DNA of 64,000 nt. It comes from Gemmatimonadetes bacterium T265 (GTDB taxonomy: Bacteria > Gemmatimonadota > Gemmatimonadetes > Gemmatimonadales > Gemmatimonadaceae). The position numbers were made by a program, and so were the translations under genes. The notes under the pieces were generated by a model. That model saw only the letters and a list, made by a program, of their open reading frames with translations. It was not told where the DNA came from and ran no database searches. Positions 2,136 through 11,671 of the stretch are shown in pieces. Numbering within the stretch: the stretch's first letter is position 1; each line of letters starts with the position of its first letter. The DNA lies in the NCBI GenBank assembly GCA_019973575.1, contig BPUI01000002.1, forward strand, positions 496,001 to 560,000, given 5' to 3'.

Positions 2136-3287
2136 ATGAACATACCTATGCGCCATTCCGTCCGGGTTCCGATCACGCTCTGTACGGCCCTACTGCTCGC
2201 GGGCGGCGTCGCGGCCGGGTCCGCGGCCGCCGCTGACGGAGTCGCGGGCCGACAGCCTCCGCCGTCCACGGCGGCCGTCGTGGCGCCGGCGGCGGTGTTG
2301 GCCTTCATGGCCGCGCCTAACACGCCGTCGGTCGGGGCGGTGCGGGCCAAGGGCGGCGTGTACGCGAAGTACGAGTCGGACTTCGTCAAGTACGCCGACT
2401 ACCACTGGGGGCTGACGAACCCGGACAGCACCTCGTTCGGCGCGAACTTTTACGACCGGGCGATGATCTACTACGTGTGGTGGGCCCGCACCGGGAACGC
2501 GACGTACCTCGACCGCGCCAACAAGCTGGCGATCCAGGCGCGCACGGACCTCGAGGGGTGGCACCACTACCCGATGACGTACAACATGATGCTGGACGGC
2601 GTGGCGCTGCACGCGCTCGTGACCGGCGACCAGCACTCGGCGGCGGTGGTGGCCAAGGTCGCCGACAACATGGCAAACCCGAAGGGTTGGTTCTCGTACG
2701 TCGCCGGGCACACGGGCGACGCGGAGGGCGACAGCCGCAACTCGGCCCGGATCCTCGGGGCGGTGCTCGACGCGTACCTGCTGAAGGTGAAGAGCCCGGC
2801 GGGGTACGACTACGCCGCGCGGTTGCGTGACATCGAAAATCGTATCCTGGCCACCCAGAGCCCCGACGGCGCGTACCGCTGGCCGAACCAGTGCGGCTAC
2901 GACAAGCCGTACATGACGGGGATGCTGAACGACGCGCTGATCCGCTACTACGCGTCGTTCCAGCCCGACCCGCGCATCCCGGTCGCGGTCAAGAAGGCGG
3001 TCGACTATCTGTGGGCCAACGACTGGGTCCCGAGCGCGCACGGCTTCCGGTACCTCGGCGGGGTCTGCAAGACGCCGAGCGGCGGCGATCCGTCGGTCAC
3101 GGCCGATCTCAACAGCCTGATCGTGTCCGGCTTCGCGTTCGTGGCCAAGCTGACCGGGGACGTGACCTACGACGAGAAGGCGGACGCGGTGTTCGCCGGC
3201 GGCGTGAACGGCGCGTGGATGAACGGGCCCAAGCAGTTCAACCAGGCGTACACCGCGTCGTACCGGTACCTCTCGCTCCGGTTCTGA
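2136..3287 (+). CDS. Secreted protein of probable alpha/alpha-barrel fold (glycan-active-like)
   Basis: A Sec signal peptide (hydrophobic run ITLCTALLLAGGVAAGSAAAA) is followed by about 350 residues rich in Trp, Tyr and Asp. Repeated helical-hairpin motifs (YYVWWARTGNATYLDRAN, YPMTYNMMLDGVALHAL, then DGAYRWPNQCG and MTGMLNDALIRYY) resemble the barrels of polysaccharide lyases and glycoside hydrolases such as the GH76 and GH88/105 types, but I cannot place it in a named family. It is a close paralogue of the protein at 4238-5848 but lacks that protein's lectin domain. ATG 2136 and ATG 2148 are both possible starts; the only AGGAG (2114-2118) is too far upstream to decide. Confidence 0.75.
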   Translation: MNIPMRHSVRVPITLCTALLLAGGVAAGSAAAADGVAGRQPPPSTAAVVAPAAVLAFMAAPNTPSVGAVRAKGGVYAKYESDFVKYADYHWGLTNPDSTSFGANFYDRAMIYYVWWARTGNATYLDRANKLAIQARTDLEGWHHYPMTYNMMLDGVALHALVTGDQHSAAVVAKVADNMANPKGWFSYVAGHTGDAEGDSRNSARILGAVLDAYLLKVKSPAGYDYAARLRDIENRILATQSPDGAYRWPNQCGYDKPYMTGMLNDALIRYYASFQPDPRIPVAVKKAVDYLWANDWVPSAHGFRYLGGVCKTPSGGDPSVTADLNSLIVSGFAFVAKLTGDVTYDEKADAVFAGGVNGAWMNGPKQFNQAYTASYRYLSLRF

Positions 3288-3361: not shown

Positions 3362-3859
3362 CTACGACTCCGGGTGCGCGAACACCCAGTATCGTTGCAG
3401 CACGAAGTTGGTGACGGTGGTGGCGCCGGTGGCAATCACCCACCACACGGATGCGGTTAGGCGCCCCGACCACACGCCGAGTTGGATCGTGAGGAGGGAA
3501 AGGAGCAGCGACCCCCCGTGGGCGACGAGGAAGCGGACGGCGGTGCGTCCGTGCGGGGCCGTACTCCCGAACGTCCACCGCCGATTGACGACGTAGCTGA
3601 CGGCGACGCCGGTCGCGTACGCACTGGCCTGCGCCAGGCTGGCGGCCCACCGCTGGTCGCCCGCGACTCGCAGCAGAAGTCGGAAGATGAGGAACGTCCC
3701 GGCCGCGTTCGTGCCCCCGGCGACGAGGAAGCGTGCAGCGGCGCTCCGAAGCGTACTGCCGGACGCCGCGGGGCTCGTGAGCGTCGTCGCGGATGGGGAT
3801 GGATTCGTGCTCGAGGCGTCGCGCCCGGGGTCACGAGCTACCGCGCCGCGACGATGCAC
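3362..3859 (-). CDS. GtrA-like membrane protein
   Basis: Four hydrophobic segments in the GtrA/DPMS-flippase arrangement: ARFLVAGGTNAAGTFLIFRLL, then ASAYATGVAVSYVVNRRWTFG, a third helix, and a last helix ending TNFVLQRYWVFA. The two VNRRWTF/LQRYWVF-type motifs are diagnostic. Members move lipid-linked sugars across the membrane or assist glycosyltransferases. The frame is open up to 3997, but the first 45 residues from there look non-coding. A GTG at 3857-3859 gives 165 residues, close to the family size of 120-160. It sits between the two secreted paralogues, on the opposite strand. One copy of the GTTAGGC motif (3456-3462) lies inside it, read here as CTA-ACC. Confidence 0.75.
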   Translation of the reverse strand: MHRRGAVARDPGRDASSTNPSPSATTLTSPAASGSTLRSAAARFLVAGGTNAAGTFLIFRLLLRVAGDQRWAASLAQASAYATGVAVSYVVNRRWTFGSTAPHGRTAVRFLVAHGGSLLLSLLTIQLGVWSGRLTASVWWVIATGATTVTNFVLQRYWVFAHPES

Positions 3860-4084
3860 GTGGCCGCGTGCGGCGAATTGCGGCAGGCCTGCTACGCGCC
3901 AGTGCTCGCATCGTGAGGCGCGTTCACGCGCGAGGTAGCGCTGTCGACGTGATGCGCGAGTGGCCACAGCGGCAGCAGCCGACGTGCGCTGAGTCACGCG
4001 TTTAGGACGAGCGCCGACCGGCCGACATTATCGACTGCCGCCGGCGCTCAGTCGCAGCGGCGTGCTCTGAGGTACGCGTGTATC

Positions 4085-4175
4085 GCGGATTCCCAGGGCG
4101 ACAATGGCAAACCCGTCGAAAGGCGGGGACGCAAAGCTACGAGGCTACCGCTCGGCTGCCGCACGTGCGCAACAC
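4085..4175 (+). promoter_or_regulatory. c-di-GMP-I (GEMM) riboswitch
   Basis: The invariant GEMM core is present: GGCAAACC at 4106-4113, a six-pair stem capped by a GAAA tetraloop (4112-4117 with 4122-4127, loop 4118-4121), GGGACGCAAAGC at 4126-4136, then CTACGAGG and a second arm GGCTACC...GGCTGCCG to about 4172. This matches the known two-stem c-di-GMP aptamer, with GNRA loop and receptor. It lies 60-150 bases upstream of the ATG at 4238, same strand. So translation or transcription of the lectin protein downstream is probably set by c-di-GMP. The off/on direction and the expression platform in 4176-4237 could not be determined. Confidence 0.88.
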
Positions 4176-4237
4176 GCGTGCGACGGCCGCTGCCACGTCA
4201 GTCGGGCTGCCGAACCCCCTCCACACCTCCCCGCGAC

Positions 4238-5848
4238 ATGCAGTTCCCCTCCCTCGCCGGCGGTTATCCGTCCGGCCGTCTCCGCCGCGCCCTGTCCGCG
4301 GCCGTCCTCGCGCTCGCGGGCACCGCGTGCCAGGACAACAACGTAACCGGCCCGGCCTCGACCGAGACGTTCCCCCCGGCCTTCAGCACCGGCGCAACGC
4401 AGGGCACGTCCGCTGCGGGCTCGATCGTCAGCCGCGTGAGCCCCACGCGGTGCATGGACGTTCTCGGCACGGGCGCGACGCACGACCCGCGGATCGGGAT
4501 CTACTCCTGCGACGGCAGTGCGGAGCAGCAGTTCGTCTCGACGGCGGCGGGCGAGCTCCGTAACGGCGCGATGTGCGTCGACGTGGCTGGCGCCGGCCGC
4601 AGCGGCGACGCGGTCATCGGCCGTGCCTGCAGCGGCAGTGCGAACCAGCGTTGGGCCAGGACGTCCGACGGCACGATCCGGGGCATCAACGGGCGGTGCA
4701 TCGAAGTTCCCGGCGGCAACACGGCGAACGCGACGAAGCTCGTGTTGAACGACTGCCGCGGCGGGACGAACCAGATCTGGGACAACGTCCGGTCGACCGC
4801 CACGGCCACGGCCGCGATGCCGAAGTCGACCGTGAAGCCGTCGGCCGTGCTCGCCTTCATGGGCGCGGCGAGCGTGCCCGGTGTCGCCGCCGTGCAGGCG
4901 AAGGGCGGCGTGTACGCGCGCTACGAGAGCAACTTCAGCAAGTACGAGCAGTACCAGTGGACCTTGACCGCCAACGGCATCGACAGCACGTCGTTCGAGG
5001 CGAACTTCTACGACCGCGCGATGATCTACTACGTGTGGTGGGCCCGCACCGGCGACGCGACGTACCTCGACCGCGCCAACAAGCTGGCGGTGAGTGCACG
5101 GACGTACCTGGAGGGGCTGAAGTACTACCCGATGACGTACAACATGATGTTGGACGGGGTGGCGCTGCACGCGCTCGTGACGGGCGACCAGCGGTCGGCG
5201 ACGACGGTGGCGAAGGTCGCCGACAACCTGGCGAACCCGAACGGCTGGTTCTCGTACGTCGCCGGGCACGCCGGGGACGCGGAGGGCGACAGCCGCAACT
5301 CGGCCCGGATCCTCGCGGCCGTGCTCGACGCCTACCTGCTGAAGGTGAACAGCCCGGCGGGGTACAACTATGCCAAGCTCCTCCCGGACCTCGAGCGGCG
5401 GATCCTGGCGACGCAGAGCGCGGACGGCGCGTACCGCTGGCCGAACCAGTGCAACTCCGACAAGCCGTTCATGACCGGCATGTTGAACGACGCGCTGATC
5501 CGCTACTACACGTCGTTCCAGCCCGACACCCACATCCCGGGCGCGGTCAAGAAGGCGGTCGACTATCTGTGGGCCAACGACTGGGTGGCCGGCTCGCAGG
5601 GCTTCCGGTACCTCGGCGCGTACTGCAGCAACCCGAACAGCGGCGGCACCAACGGTCCCACGCCGGACCTGAACAGCCTGATCGTGTCCGGCTTCTCGTT
5701 CGTGGCCAAGCACACCGGGGACGCGAGCTACAACGCGAAGGCCGACGCGGTGTTCGCGGGCGGCGTGGCGAGCGCGTGGCTCAACGGGCCCAAGCAGTTC
5801 AACCAGGCGTACACGGCGTCGTACCGGTACCTCGCGCTGCGCTTCTGA
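4238..5848 (+). CDS. Secreted ricin-type lectin plus alpha/alpha-barrel protein under c-di-GMP riboswitch
   Basis: From ATG 4238 the protein has an export signal (RRALSAAVLALAGTAC, lipoprotein-like, although the residue at -3 is Gly and not the usual Leu). Next, about residues 60-185 form a ricin B-type beta-trefoil with three QxW-like repeats (QQF, QRW, QIW) and paired Cys. From about residue 200 comes a barrel domain very similar to the protein at 2136-3287. The lectin repeats suggest binding to a galactose- or xylan-like glycan. The barrel may act on the same polymer, but that is inference. The upstream GEMM aptamer ties its expression to the biofilm/motility second messenger. A strong hairpin (5866-5908) follows the stop. 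Confidence 0.8.
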   Translation: MQFPSLAGGYPSGRLRRALSAAVLALAGTACQDNNVTGPASTETFPPAFSTGATQGTSAAGSIVSRVSPTRCMDVLGTGATHDPRIGIYSCDGSAEQQFVSTAAGELRNGAMCVDVAGAGRSGDAVIGRACSGSANQRWARTSDGTIRGINGRCIEVPGGNTANATKLVLNDCRGGTNQIWDNVRSTATATAAMPKSTVKPSAVLAFMGAASVPGVAAVQAKGGVYARYESNFSKYEQYQWTLTANGIDSTSFEANFYDRAMIYYVWWARTGDATYLDRANKLAVSARTYLEGLKYYPMTYNMMLDGVALHALVTGDQRSATTVAKVADNLANPNGWFSYVAGHAGDAEGDSRNSARILAAVLDAYLLKVNSPAGYNYAKLLPDLERRILATQSADGAYRWPNQCNSDKPFMTGMLNDALIRYYTSFQPDTHIPGAVKKAVDYLWANDWVAGSQGFRYLGAYCSNPNSGGTNGPTPDLNSLIVSGFSFVAKHTGDASYNAKADAVFAGGVASAWLNGPKQFNQAYTASYRYLALRF

Positions 5849-5920: not shown

Positions 5921-7204
5921 CTACTGCACCGTCTTCGTCTTCCGCCGCAGGAAGTCCATCAGCACGAACTGGCCTAACGTCATCGTGCTTGTGAAGTAGG
6001 CCTTTCCGCGCGCGATCTCGCTCACCCGCTTGACGAACTCGACGAGCGAGCGGTCGCGCGCGAGCATGAACGTGTTGATCATGATCCCCGCGCGGCGGCA
6101 GTCGGCGACCTCCTTCAGCGTCTCCGCGAGGACGCCCGCGTCGAGCCCCATCGGGTTCTTGTAGATCATCCCGTTGGGCAGCGTGAGCGCGCTCGGCTTG
6201 CCGTCGGTGATCATCACGATCTGGCGCATGTCTTTCTTCTGCGCCTGGAGGATGCGGCGCGCGAGCTTGAGACCCTCGGCGGTGTTCGTGTGGTACGGGC
6301 CGACCTGCGCGTGGGCGAGCTGCGAGATCGGGATCTCCTCGGCCGAGTCGTGGAAGAGGACGACGCGGACCGTGTCGCCGGGGAACTGCGTGCGGATGAG
6401 GTGCGCGAGCGCGAGCGCGACCTTCTTAGCGGGGGTGAAGCGGTCCTCGCCGTAGAGGATCATCGAGTGCGACGTGTCGAGCATGAGCACCGTCGCGCAG
6501 CTCGACCGGTACTCGGCCTGGCGCACCATGAGGTCCGGGTAGTCGAGGTCCATCGGGACCTCGATCCGGCCCGTGCGGGCGAGCGAGTTCTTGAGCGTCT
6601 CGTTGACGTCGAGGTTCAGCACGTCGCCGAACTCGTACGGCTTGCTGAAGCCGTCGCTCTCGACGCCGGTCGCGAGGTACGGCGTGTCGTGGCTGCCGAC
6701 GCTGCTCTTGCCGAGGCTGCCTAACAGATGGCGGAGCGTCTTGTAGCCGAGGAAGTCGATGCCCTTGTCGGTGAGGTTGAACTGGACGTCCTTGCTCGCC
6801 GCGTGGCCGACGGAGCCCTTGCCGGTGACCGGCTGCTGCGCGCCGGGCATCTGGGGCGGGGGGCCGTCCGTCTTCAGGTACCCCTCGCTCACGAGGCGCT
6901 GGACGAGCTGGTCGAGGAGCTCGGCGAGCTTGGCGTTCGCGTCCTCGTCACCGTCGCCGCGGAGCGCCTCGAGCATCTCGGGGGTGAACTGGCCGCTCTC
7001 GAGGAGGGCGTCGAGGATGGCCTGCTTGAGGCCGTCGAGCGAGCGGTCGGCGTCCTCGCCGGTCTCGCCCCAGAACGGGTGCGACTGGGCGCCGCCGGCG
7101 AACCCCGAATCGAGCAGGAAGCCGGCGAGCTTGTCGAGCAGCGACTGCAGGTCGACGGCGTCGGCGATCTCGGGGCTGTACTTCGTGTAAGTGTGGAAGC
7201 GCAT
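5921..7204 (-). CDS. von Willebrand factor A domain protein, chelatase-D-like partner of a MoxR-type ATPase
   Basis: 427 residues. The acidic, helical N-terminal half (to about 200) is family-specific. The C-terminal half is a vWA domain whose metal-ion-dependent adhesion site reads DTSHS (the DxSxS motif), with downstream ITDGKPS supplying the later Asp. Such proteins pair with AAA+ ATPases of the magnesium-chelatase/MoxR class, which is exactly the gene at 10184-11671 in the same operon. Together they probably form a chaperone or remodelling complex of unknown client. Start ATG 7202-7204. Two GTTAGGC motifs (5972, 6719) are read as Leu-Gly inside this gene. Confidence 0.85.
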
Positions 7205-7317
7205 CGACGACGGCTCGCGGCAGGAAGCGGGGAGGGCGACTACGGGAAGCTACCGGGTCTTACCCGGGCGAGGGGCGGAGGTGCGGGGGCGCGGGCGCCC
7301 GTGTCGCGCAACCGTGG

Positions 7318-7337
7318 ACCCCTGCGTTCGCAGGGGT
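7318..7337. terminator. Hairpin in kinase-vWA intergenic gap
   Basis: ACCCCTGCG and CGCAGGGGT pair around a TT turn. A smaller hairpin (CCGGGT/ACCCGG) sits at 7253-7267. The 144-base gap holds no gene; the hairpins may attenuate read-through from the kinase gene or stabilise message ends. Confidence 0.45.
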
Positions 7338-7348
7338 GACGGCTCTGG

Positions 7349-10183
7349 TCACACCGCCGCCGGATCGATGCCGAGGACGGCGGCGACGCGGCCGACGAGG
7401 ACCTCGGGGGTGAAGGGCTTCGGGAGGAAGGCCACGGCGTCGGCGGAGACGCCGCGGTGGAGCACCTCGTCTTCCGTGTAGCCGGAGGTGAACAGCACGC
7501 GTGTGTCCGGACGTTCCTGCGCGAGCGCTTCGGCGAGTTCGCGGCCGCTCAGGCCGGGCATGACGACGTCGGTGAGCAGGAGGTCGATCGGGCCGCGGTG
7601 CGTGCGGGCCACGGCGAGTGCCTGCATTCCCTCTTCGGCCACGAGCACGCGGTACCCGCCGCGCACGAGCGCCTCGCGCGCGATGGTGCGCACGGTGCGC
7701 TCGTCCTCGACGAGCAGGACGGTCGCGGGTGAATCGTCGCCGTCGGGGGCGCGGGCGGCGGCGCGCGCGGGCGCGCCAACGTAGACGCCGTTCGCCGGGG
7801 TGGCCTGGCGGTCCGTCGCGGCGGCCACGCGCGGCAGGTAGAGCACGAACGTGCTCCCCTCGCCAGGGGCGCTGGTCACGCGCACCAGGCCGCCGGCCTG
7901 GGTGACGATCCCGTACACGGTCGCGAGCCCCAGACCGGTGCCCTTGCCGCGCGCCTTGGTCGTGAAGAACGGCTCGAAGATGCGGGCCTGCGTGGCGTCG
8001 TCCATCCCGATGCCGCTATCGCACACGGCCAGGCGCACCCACGGACCGGTCGGGACCCCAGGGTGGTCGGGGTCGGGCGCGTGCACGTCGACGTCCGAGA
8101 CGTCCACGCCGAGCGTGCCGCCGGAGGGCATCGCGTCGCGCGCGTTGAGCACGAGGTTCATCACGACCTGCTCGAGCTGGCCGCGGTCGGCGAGGACGCG
8201 GCCCGTCGCCGGGCGTGCTGCGGCGTCGCCTTCCGGCGCGCCGTTCGCCGACGTGCCGTTCGGCCGCCCGATGCCGCTCGTCTTCAGGCGCACGTCCTCG
8301 CCGATGACGCGGGCGAGCATGGGCTCCAGTTCGGCGACGACGTCGGCGGGGGCGAGGACGCTGAACTGGGTGACGTGGCCGCGGCTGAAGCTGAGGATCT
8401 GCCCGGTAAGCGCGGCGGCGCGCCGGGCGGAGTCGCGGATCAGCGCGACGTCGTCGCGCACGGGGGAGTCGTGCGGCAGGTCGGCGAGGGCGAGGTCGCA
8501 GGCGCCGAGGATGCCGGTGAGAAGGTTGTTGAAGTCGTGCGCGATGCCACCCGCGAAACGGCCCAGTGCTTCCATCTTCTGACCGCGGCGGAGCTGCTCC
8601 TGCGACTCGGCGAGGGCGCGCTCGGCCTCGCGGCGCGCGGTGACGTCGACGGTGACGGAGAGCCGGGCGGGTCGGCCTTCGTACTCGGTGTCGGCCGTGT
8701 AGACCTCCGCGTCGAACTCGGTACCGTCGCGACGCAGGTGGCGCGTGACGCGCGGGGTCCGCCGGGTGCCGGCCGCGGGCGACCGCCAGACGTGCGACTC
8801 GGCGAGGAAGATGAGGCGCTCGGACTCGGGGCGGAGGTCGAGCAGGGTGCGGCGTGTGAACTCGTGACCGGTGTAACCGTACTGGGCGAGGGCGGCGTCG
8901 TTGGCGGCGAGCACGGTGTAGGTGCCGACGTCGGCGAGGTACATCGGCAGCGGCGACGCCTCGAAGAGCGAGCGGTAGCGCTGCTCGCTCCGGTGCAGCT
9001 CGGCGGTGCGGGCCGTGAGCGTCGCAGCCATCTCGCTGAAGGTCGCGGCGAGCGTGCCGAGCTCGCCGGGCAGGTCGGCGGGCGTGCGGCGGGTGTGGTC
9101 GCCGGCGGCGAGCGCGGTGGCATCGGCCGTGAGGTCCCCCAGCGGGCGCGTGATGCGTCGGGCGGCGACGAGGGCGAGGAGGAGTGCGACGCCGAGCGTC
9201 AAACCGCCGAGCGTGATGTCGCGCCGTAGCTCGTGCTGGACCGGGGCGAACGCGGCCGAGGTGGGGAGTACGACGTAGACGCGCCATGGCAGCAGCCGCG
9301 GACGGACGGCGGCGATCAGGCGACCGGGGTCGGGGCGGCCGTCCGCGCGGGCGTCCTCGTCCACGCTGACGCCGTCCGCGCCGTCGAGCGTGTGCGGCGG
9401 GCGGACGGTCGCGTCAAGGGGGCGGCCGATCCAGGCGGGGACGATCGGCGCGCTCGCGACGACGTGGCCGTGTGCGTCGGCGAGGACGACGGTCGAGCCG
9501 GGTGGAAGGCCCGTGGCGTCGAGCGTGTGGCCGAGAGTCGGGAGGTGGACGGTGCCGAGGACGACGGCCTGCACGTCGCCTGCGGCGGTCGTGACCGGGT
9601 GCGCGAAGATGACCGACCAGATGCTCGAGTCGGGGCGCGCGCGCACGGGGTCGCTGACGGTCGGGCGGCGCGTCGCGAGCGCCTCCTGGAAATACGGGCG
9701 GTCGGCGGCGTTGATCGCTGCGCGCGGCGGGACGGGACGACGCGACGTGCCGATGTTCGCGCCGGTGCGGTCCTGCACCCAGAGGTTGGTGACGGCGGGC
9801 GCGGGGAGCGTGCTCTTGACCGCGAGCAGGAGGGAGTCGTTCGCGGCCGTGCCGGCGCTGGTGCGGCGTACCTGCGGTGCGAGCGCGCTCAGCAGCGTGC
9901 CGATGACCTCGGAGCGTGCGTCGAGGCGGGCGGCGACGATGTGGGCCGTCTCGAGGGCGCGCGATGCCGCGGCCGCGCGTGCCTCGGCGGCCCGCGTGCG
10001 GGCGCGCCAGACGGTGAGCACGATGAACGGCGCCGTCGCGGCGCAGGCGAGCAGGAGCAGGCCGGCCCGCACACTCGGGCCGCGGCGCCGCCAGCCGACG
10101 GCGGCGCGGCCGGGCCTACGGACTCGCGGCGTGACCACGGGCGGGGCCGGCGAAGTGTTCGCCGGCCCTGAGCGTGCGGGCAT
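7349..10183 (-). CDS. Hybrid sensor histidine kinase with receiver domain
   Basis: 944 residues. A first membrane helix lies near residue 40-60, then an extracytoplasmic Cache-like sensor to about 315, a second helix (LTLGVALLLALVAA), HAMP, PAS (about 410-530), HisKA with the phospho-acceptor His in GRFAGGIAHDFNNLL, and HATPase_c with LVLNARDAM, DSGIGM and GTGLGLATVYG. It ends with a receiver domain (TVLLVEDE, phospho-Asp in LLLTDVVMPG, Lys in FLPKPF). The His/receiver arrangement is that of a phosphorelay or self-regulating kinase. Its ATG follows the TGA of the AAA+ gene directly (TGAATG), so translation is probably coupled. The ligand is unknown and no output domain is attached. Confidence 0.92.
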   Translation of the reverse strand: MPARSGPANTSPAPPVVTPRVRRPGRAAVGWRRRGPSVRAGLLLLACAATAPFIVLTVWRARTRAAEARAAAASRALETAHIVAARLDARSEVIGTLLSALAPQVRRTSAGTAANDSLLLAVKSTLPAPAVTNLWVQDRTGANIGTSRRPVPPRAAINAADRPYFQEALATRRPTVSDPVRARPDSSIWSVIFAHPVTTAAGDVQAVVLGTVHLPTLGHTLDATGLPPGSTVVLADAHGHVVASAPIVPAWIGRPLDATVRPPHTLDGADGVSVDEDARADGRPDPGRLIAAVRPRLLPWRVYVVLPTSAAFAPVQHELRRDITLGGLTLGVALLLALVAARRITRPLGDLTADATALAAGDHTRRTPADLPGELGTLAATFSEMAATLTARTAELHRSEQRYRSLFEASPLPMYLADVGTYTVLAANDAALAQYGYTGHEFTRRTLLDLRPESERLIFLAESHVWRSPAAGTRRTPRVTRHLRRDGTEFDAEVYTADTEYEGRPARLSVTVDVTARREAERALAESQEQLRRGQKMEALGRFAGGIAHDFNNLLTGILGACDLALADLPHDSPVRDDVALIRDSARRAAALTGQILSFSRGHVTQFSVLAPADVVAELEPMLARVIGEDVRLKTSGIGRPNGTSANGAPEGDAAARPATGRVLADRGQLEQVVMNLVLNARDAMPSGGTLGVDVSDVDVHAPDPDHPGVPTGPWVRLAVCDSGIGMDDATQARIFEPFFTTKARGKGTGLGLATVYGIVTQAGGLVRVTSAPGEGSTFVLYLPRVAAATDRQATPANGVYVGAPARAAARAPDGDDSPATVLLVEDERTVRTIAREALVRGGYRVLVAEEGMQALAVARTHRGPIDLLLTDVVMPGLSGRELAEALAQERPDTRVLFTSGYTEDEVLHRGVSADAVAFLPKPFTPEVLVGRVAAVLGIDPAAV

Positions 10184-11671
10184 TCAGGATCCGAAGAGGT
10201 CCTCGCCCGGACGGCGGCGCTTCTCGCTCACCGCGCGGCCATACTGGCCGCGGTCGTTGCGCGAGATCTTGCGCCGGGCGACGAGCGCCTCGAGCACGAG
10301 CTCGCAGGCCGCCGCGGTCGCGCCCGGGTCGTCGGGGGTCGCGAGGCCGGTGTGGTGCACGATGTCGAGGAGCTGCGGCACCGCGCTGAACGCCTGGGCG
10401 ACGAGCGCGGACGGCTGCTCGTCGTCGACCTGGAGCGCGCCGCCCTCGTCGAACCAGATGATGACCTGGTCGAGGTTGGGCGTGCCGGCGCGGGCCTTGA
10501 GCGTGGCGTCGGCCGCGCGGCGGATCAGCTCGCGCGCGATCGAGGCGCCGCCGACGAGCTCGCCCTCGTACTCCAGCTCGAGCTTGCCGGTGATCGCGGG
10601 GAGCGCGGCGAAGACGTCGGCGATGCGCGGCACGACCTCGGTCTCGCCCGTGCGGACGGCACGTCGCTCGGCGTTGCTCACGACGTTCTCCATCGCCGTG
10701 ATGGGCATGCGCTGCGAGACGCCGGAGCGCTTGTCGATGCGCTTGTCGCCGCGCGCCTCGAAGGCGACGCGCTCGATGACCTCCGAGACGAGCTCGGGGA
10801 GGCGCACCGGGCGCGAAAACTCGTCGCGCGTCTCGCCCGCGCCCTGGCGCGCGGTCCAGGCCTCCTGCTGCGTGATTGCCATCCCGAGCTCGATCTCTTC
10901 GGGGTAGTGGGTCACGATCTCGGAGCCGATGCGGTCCTTGAGCGGGGTGATGATCTTGCCGCGCGCCGTATAGTCCTCGGGGTTGGCGGTGAAGCAGAGG
11001 AGGACGTCGAGCGGGAGGCGGACGGGGTAGCCCTTAATCTGGACGTCCCCTTCCTGCATGATGTTGAACAGGCCGACCTGCACCTTGCCGGCGAGGTCGG
11101 GGAGCTCGTTGAGGGCGAAGATGCCGCGGTTGGCGCGCGGCAGCATGCCGTACTGGATGGTGAGCTCGTCGGAGAGCAGGTGGCCGCCGCGCGCGGCCTT
11201 GATCGGGTCGACGTCGCCGATGATGTCGGCGATCGTCACGTCGGGGGTGGCGAGCTTCTCGACGAAGCGCATGTCGCGGTCGACCCAGGCGATCGGCGCG
11301 TCCTCGCCCTGCTCGGCGATGAGTTGCTTGGCGAACTTGCTGATCGGCCGGAACGGGTCGTCGTTCACCTCGCTCCCGGCGACGACGGGCATCTCGGGGT
11401 CGAGGAGGGTGACGAGGGCGCGCAGGATGCGGCTCTTCGCCTGGCCGCGCAGGCCGAGGAGGATGAAGTTGTGCCGCGAGAGGAGGGCGTTGACGATCTG
11501 CGGCATGACGGTGTCCTCGTAGCCGAGGACGCCCTCGAAGAGCGGGCCGCCGCCGGCGAGGCGGGCGAGCAGGTTGCGGCGCAGTTCGTCCTTGACCGAG
11601 CGCGCGCGGCGTTCGGCGTACCCCGCGGCGCGGAGGGCGCCGAGGGTGGTGGGGAGCGTGGTCGTCGACAC
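10184..11671 (-). CDS. MoxR/magnesium-chelatase-type AAA+ ATPase
   Basis: 495 residues from GTG 11669-11671. The core has a P-loop-like GLRGQAKSRILRAL (Lys-Ser with a variant spacing), the sensor region LLCFTANPEDYTARG, and ANRGIFALNELPDLAG carrying Walker B; this is the ChlI/BchI-like AAA+ arrangement. It is about 150 residues longer than typical MoxR, and the extra sequence is C-terminal and helical. It is the first gene of the operon ATPase - hybrid kinase - vWA protein, and pairing with the vWA protein is expected from the family. Having a sensor kinase between the two partners suggests that remodelling activity is linked to an external signal; this is inference. Confidence 0.88.
   Translation of the reverse strand: MSTTTLPTTLGALRAAGYAERRARSVKDELRRNLLARLAGGGPLFEGVLGYEDTVMPQIVNALLSRHNFILLGLRGQAKSRILRALVTLLDPEMPVVAGSEVNDDPFRPISKFAKQLIAEQGEDAPIAWVDRDMRFVEKLATPDVTIADIIGDVDPIKAARGGHLLSDELTIQYGMLPRANRGIFALNELPDLAGKVQVGLFNIMQEGDVQIKGYPVRLPLDVLLCFTANPEDYTARGKIITPLKDRIGSEIVTHYPEEIELGMAITQQEAWTARQGAGETRDEFSRPVRLPELVSEVIERVAFEARGDKRIDKRSGVSQRMPITAMENVVSNAERRAVRTGETEVVPRIADVFAALPAITGKLELEYEGELVGGASIARELIRRAADATLKARAGTPNLDQVIIWFDEGGALQVDDEQPSALVAQAFSAVPQLLDIVHHTGLATPDDPGATAAACELVLEALVARRKISRNDRGQYGRAVSEKRRRPGEDLFGS

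Follow-up and report, generated by a model that had tools for sequence, protein, structure and literature searches.

A c-di-GMP-I aptamer precedes a putative lectin lipoprotein with a PL26-like barrel in a Gemmatimonadetes bacterium and is a likely member of a lineage-wide regulon

Based on covariance-model searches, comparison with related genomes and structural modelling, we find that the single RNA detected in a 64 kb window of the genome of Gemmatimonadetes bacterium T265 (the whole stretch of DNA analysed here, to which all positions refer) is, by its sequence, a complete canonical c-di-GMP-I (GEMM-I) aptamer. It lies directly before the gene of a probable lipoprotein in which a ricin-type lectin is joined to an (alpha/alpha)6 barrel of an unnamed family, and we consider it likely that this riboswitch-lipoprotein locus belongs to a GEMM-I regulon of exported lipoproteins that extends across the lineage. 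The features of the locus are collected in Table 1.

Table 1. Features of the riboswitch locus in the 64 kb window (all on the + strand)
Feature	Position	Strand	Basis
Tandem barrel paralogue, no lectin, no riboswitch	2136-3287	+	Barrel 79% identical; Sec-type signal peptide
Candidate 5' regulatory arm, predicted to pair with the initiation region 4231-4244 (AUG 4238-4240 within)	4074-4088	+	Folds, duplex energy
c-di-GMP-I (GEMM-I) aptamer with long P3 apical hairpin	4096-4215	+	RF03167, 65.5 bits; RF01051, 65.8 bits
Closing helix P1: 4100-4211, 4099-4212, AA bulge 4213-4214, 4098-4215, 4097-4216, 4096-4217	4096-4217	+	Anchored covariation
Spacer from aptamer to start codon, C-rich	4218-4237	+	Sequence
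Lipoprotein gene, 536 aa, ATG 4238	4238-5848	+	ORF; aptamer-to-start spacing as in relatives
Predicted signal peptide and lipobox, Cys31	4238-4330	+	Cys31 column at least 90% conserved across the 79 GEMM-I targets
Ricin-type beta-trefoil lectin domain, residues 60-181	4415-4780	+	PF00652, E 2.8e-21
Predicted (alpha/alpha)6-barrel domain, unnamed family, PL26-like	4823-5845	+	AlphaFold2 model; structure matches

The Rfam scan labels the RNA c-di-GMP-I-GGC (RF03167; 4097-4215(+), 65.5 bits against a gathering threshold of 59, E 3e-13), and in the genome search the parent model RF01051 scores 65.8 bits at 4096-4214, well above its own threshold of 35. Neither search found a second GEMM-I match in the 5.63 Mb genome. 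Two stems, a GAAA tetraloop and three ligand-contact positions are all present, the contact residues G20, A47 and C92 of Vc2 (PMC4744006) corresponding by alignment to 4106, 4133 and 4210, respectively. The first-pass annotation had reported an essentially complete GEMM aptamer core, and the covariance-model score and these features bear this out. The class that it named, c-di-GMP-I, is likewise upheld by the model and the contact nucleotides, although the best Rfam label is that of the GGC variant. This label raises the question of whether the aptamer belongs to the GGC class, with an altered ligand or affinity. RF03167 is indeed the best model of the clan by E-value; however, RF01051 gives an equal bit score, and the consensus of RF03167 has G at position 47 (GACGCGAAG), which we read as the feature behind the name GGC, whereas the window RNA has A at this position (GACGCAAAG), as do all 91 related loci with a readable motif. 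As the defining nucleotide is absent, we rejected the altered-ligand class for the window RNA as very improbable and file the aptamer as canonical c-di-GMP-I, with c-di-GMP as its expected ligand. The host very probably both makes and degrades this messenger, since its genome contains 24 GGDEF and 14 EAL matches.

The start codon of the downstream gene follows the end of the aptamer by 23 nt, and its product carries a ricin-type lectin domain (76.4 bits against a curated cut-off of 29) followed by the predicted barrel, which confirms the earlier proposal of a riboswitch in front of a lectin-plus-barrel gene. That proposal also described the protein as secreted. A signal peptide does point to export, but it ends in a lipobox-like motif (...LAGTAC31), so that the protein is probably a membrane-anchored lipoprotein rather than a freely secreted one. 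We propose that it would hold glycan at the cell surface through its lectin.

The relatives give this locus its context. GEMM-I is found in 149 of 198 related genomes, and about 100 loci were fetched from these relatives. In 83 loci of Gemmatimonadales relatives the next start codon lies at most 45 nt from the aptamer end, typically 17-29 nt. By motif, a lipobox is present in 72 of 79 target proteins, compared with 5 of 42 roughly called genes of the window (Fisher p about 1e-18), and in an alignment of the 79 targets, whose mean identity is just 8%, the column of the lipobox cysteine is at least 90% conserved. The domains that they carry are diverse: Big_2 (40 proteins), subtilase (9), PKD (8), ricin lectin (5) and beta-helix (5), together with several polysaccharide-lyase families and GH6. 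As the GEMM-I targets of relatives are exported lipoproteins including lectins, subtilases and several polysaccharide-lyase families, matrix remodelling by the window protein is plausible and a reasonable hypothesis.

Some targets deserve separate mention. Peptidase_S8 and Inhibitor_I9 are each matched by 9 of the 79 proteins, and secreted subtilases thus seem to be recurrent in the regulon (e.g. L088, L091, L095 and L114, recognised by eye from their N-termini). Two GEMM-I aptamers stand directly before genes matching response-regulator and GGDEF models (L033:554-1489(-); L084:402-1337(+)), which suggests that c-di-GMP feeds back directly on a diguanylate cyclase. At four further loci (L123, L125, L129 and L130) the ORFs, which lie more than 100 nt after the aptamer, resemble by eye an ABC transporter ATPase or glycerate kinase rather than a lipoprotein; these loci may be arranged differently or belong to another sub-class.

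Comparison across loci also delineates the leader. The closing helix P1, the upstream hairpin P0 and the 5' arm were each tested by setting every locus against partners swapped in from other loci after removal of near-duplicates, a design which presumes that this redundancy filter took out most shared ancestry. P1 exceeds the Rfam model by three pairs beyond the AA bulge, and anchored covariation in 43 non-redundant loci finds its outer two pairs formed in 35 and 29 loci, where 23.2 and 19.1 were expected. Hairpin P0, directly upstream and sharing the 5' strand of P1, is likewise supported (z -5.6), with its outer stem formed in 45 of 74 loci against 21.5 expected. The 5' arm pairs with its own initiation region at -14.04 kcal/mol compared with -11.84 kcal/mol for swapped regions (z -5.5, permutation p 0.0002, n=48 loci), and five control regions (two coding, two further upstream and the 3' arm of P0) were null in the same test. 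Two other candidate structures were rejected. Pairing of the Shine-Dalgarno (SD) sequence in a local sequestering hairpin between aptamer and start is 0.41 in real leaders and 0.47 in shuffles, and a hairpin P4, formed between the 3' strand of P1 and the initiation region, is equally stable with own and swapped partners (p 0.51). These comparisons suggest that the output arm lies 5' of the aptamer, where it probably represses translation upon c-di-GMP binding. As a thermodynamic test of the switching step, enforcing P1 across loci raised SD pairing by just 0.04 (p 0.09), which is neither significant nor above swapped tails. Many GEMM-I aptamers (e.g. L035, L049, L077, L103) are preceded by a recurring GGCAGGATCGC motif, located some 30-40 nt upstream of their core; its ATCGC part forms P0, and its GGCAGG part may be a promoter or transcription start.

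At the window locus the alternative pairing of the 5' arm joins 4083-4086 (UCGC) to 4098-4101 (GCGA) to give P0. The regulatory unit, which had been taken to begin at 4085, seemingly starts further upstream, at about 4074. The AUG is paired at 0.95 in the free fold and at 1.00 when P1 is enforced, and the duplex of the window 5' arm with its own initiation region reaches -16.6 kcal/mol, against an average of -10.45 kcal/mol with the initiation regions of other loci, a pairing that is nevertheless unexceptional when set against shuffles (about 0.08) or random GC-rich 26-mers. The window leader has no Shine-Dalgarno sequence, whereas 69 of the 83 comparable loci do.

We infer that c-di-GMP binds the window aptamer and that control is exerted at the level of translation. 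In the mechanism that we propose, a c-di-GMP-I riboswitch would control a surface lipoprotein presenting a PL26-like barrel beside a glycan-holding lectin, and P1 and the 5' arm just upstream would together set whether the ribosome loads. With c-di-GMP bound, P1 would be stable and the 5' arm would pair across the aptamer with the initiation region, lowering translation; the site clamped in this way would be the SD in the relatives and the start codon at the window locus. With the ligand absent, the 5' arm would instead pair with the 5' strand of P1 as hairpin P0 and leave the initiation region free. As the arm would either break P1 through P0 or clamp the ribosome-binding site once c-di-GMP holds P1, the predicted sign is OFF, a prediction for which we put the chances at about even.

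The opposite sign would suit a role in adhesion: ligand-bound P1 would free the initiation region or block termination, and the lectin lipoproteins would be made in the biofilm. The precedent of Vc1, which activates gbpA in Vibrio cholerae (PMC4744006), and the many targets with Big_2, PKD or lectin domains, fitting adhesins, are consistent with such an ON switch. However, P1 and the pairing of the 5' arm with the initiation region are compatible, one nested within the other, and this speaks for repression upon binding; an anti-SD hairpin formed locally after the aptamer, of which an ON switch could make use, is not above chance. We regard ON control as possible, if on the doubtful side. A decaying riboswitch, in which the aptamer is intact but the window platform is lost, would leave the gene constitutive or silent and the work to the riboswitch-less tandem paralogue. 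The leader without an SD and the existence of two paralogues without a riboswitch would be in keeping with decay. Against it, five P1 pairs are kept, including a GGG/CCC combination in place of the commonest one, CCG/CGG, the 5' arm forms a far stronger duplex with its own initiation region than with those of other loci, and the reading frame is unbroken. Decay is improbable on this evidence, and we retain translational control through the 5' arm as the working model.

The sequence of the barrel finds nothing meaningful in PDB, Pfam, NCBIfam or PHROGs; weak cytochrome and MHC rows were put down to chance. AlphaFold2 models the C-terminal domain of about 340 residues as an (alpha/alpha)6 barrel (17 sequences, mean pLDDT 91.7, pTM 0.92). 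Its structural matches include cellobiose 2-epimerase (VIA Z 22.8), GH88 (21.9) and PL26 (18.8), within a superfamily comprising AGE epimerases, GH88, GH105, GH76 and PL26; the matches to GH88 and GH105 (Z 21.9 and 21.7) reflect a barrel common to many families and are not diagnostic. Most relatives of the barrel have an extra N-terminal domain with a 'GIPL...DGSLR..LVQF' signature where the window protein has its lectin. A model of the lectin-free RIFT-plus-barrel form aligns over 397 residues and both outer domains with the PL26 exo-rhamnogalacturonan lyase PcRGLX (PDB 5xqg, 5xqg_G; Z 19.4) at 15% identity, the highest among the matches listed for this model. PL26 enzymes consist of an N-terminal RIFT domain, a central beta-sandwich and an (alpha/alpha) toroid. 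The relatives align with the outer two and the middle domain is not seen in them, whereas the window protein matches the toroid alone and carries the ricin lectin where PL26 has its N-terminal domain. As 5xqg and PL26 have no sequence-profile match among PDB, Pfam and NCBIfam results, 'PL26-like' is used here as a term of architecture and not of proven membership.

We assign the barrel to an unnamed family whose architecture most resembles that of PL26; it is probably a polysaccharide lyase or hydrolase. The earlier call of a probable polysaccharide-active barrel survives as to fold, the structure prediction and family comparison giving an (alpha/alpha)6 domain with matches to epimerases, GH88 and PL26, and is corrected as to family. 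A non-catalytic sugar-binding or epimerase-like domain would also agree with this fold, which includes epimerases, and with the cellobiose 2-epimerases as top structural matches. It is nonetheless somewhat unlikely, given that PL26 aligns with both domains of the lectin-free relatives and that polysaccharide lyases occur among the other GEMM-I targets.

The distribution of the barrel also ties it to the riboswitch. The window genome has three clear barrel genes, namely the lectin copy, the tandem paralogue and a gene with a Big_2-like region on another contig; of the three, the lectin copy alone is preceded by a riboswitch. A single-protein scan of genome contigs yielded no named relatives of the barrel; a search with a small alignment found one, from Roseisolibacter sp. 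H3M3-2 (Gemmatimonadaceae), at 53% identity. Among the 149 genomes searched, the barrel is present in nine, window genome included, and in five of these nine it lies in a GEMM-I operon: in the window genome, in G008 (L056), in G016 (L057) and G053 (L059) with two barrel genes each, and in G003 (L055), where a small lipoprotein gene precedes it. As the rough chance expectation is about 0.012 (with some three GEMM-I per genome), we take the barrel to be the conserved cargo under GEMM-I and the lectin to be the variable part, one of several attachments. In the window, a GtrA-family gene (3362-3997, other strand) separates the tandem paralogue from the riboswitch gene, and the region beyond the latter (5924-11671, opposite strand) holds a gene with a VWA domain (5924-7204), one for a hybrid histidine kinase (7352-10183) and an ORF (10184-11671) that looks by eye like a MoxR-type AAA+ ATPase.

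Class I riboswitches before exported glycan-binding proteins are already known. In Vibrio cholerae, Vc1 precedes gbpA, which encodes such a protein, and has a positive effect on it; the mechanism was reported to be unclear, and the transcription start lies 244 nt from the translation start (PMC4744006). The window RNA shares the aptamer architecture, the tetraloop and G20/A47/C92 with Vc1 and Vc2 (RF01051), and its position before a probable exported glycan-binding protein with Vc1 (PMC4744006); it differs from both in the very short spacing between aptamer and start and in the upstream 5' arm and P0 hairpin. Cd1 of C. difficile and the pilM riboswitch of Geobacter, cyclic-dinucleotide riboswitches with closely related aptamers and strand exchange with P1, act via downstream transcription terminators (PMC9262584), whereas the exchange partner proposed here lies upstream and the output would be translation initiation. 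What appears to be new is that the riboswitch stands immediately in front of exported lipoproteins across the lineage, that its arm lies on the 5' side and that a PL26-like family still without a name is under its control. A limited literature search joining Gemmatimonad* with 'c-di-GMP riboswitch' found no paper.

As a broader reading, which we advance tentatively and consider rather unlikely in its full extent, c-di-GMP-I would be a standard module of Gemmatimonadales placed about 20 nt before the starts of many unrelated exported lipoproteins, with a platform 5' of the aptamer whose arm either forms a P1-destroying hairpin or clamps the ribosome-binding site; the matrix-degrading and glycan-binding lipoproteins of the regulon would then be kept off when c-di-GMP is high, which would amount to a dispersal programme. 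For the question of how class I c-di-GMP riboswitches without terminators, Vc1 and Vc2 included, control expression, this lineage holds many natural instances of an apparently translational, 5'-sided mechanism. The loci also point to a likely c-di-GMP regulon in a phylum that abounds in soil and has been little studied; the exported members of this regulon comprise lectins, proteases and polysaccharide enzymes, among them the unnamed PL26-like family.
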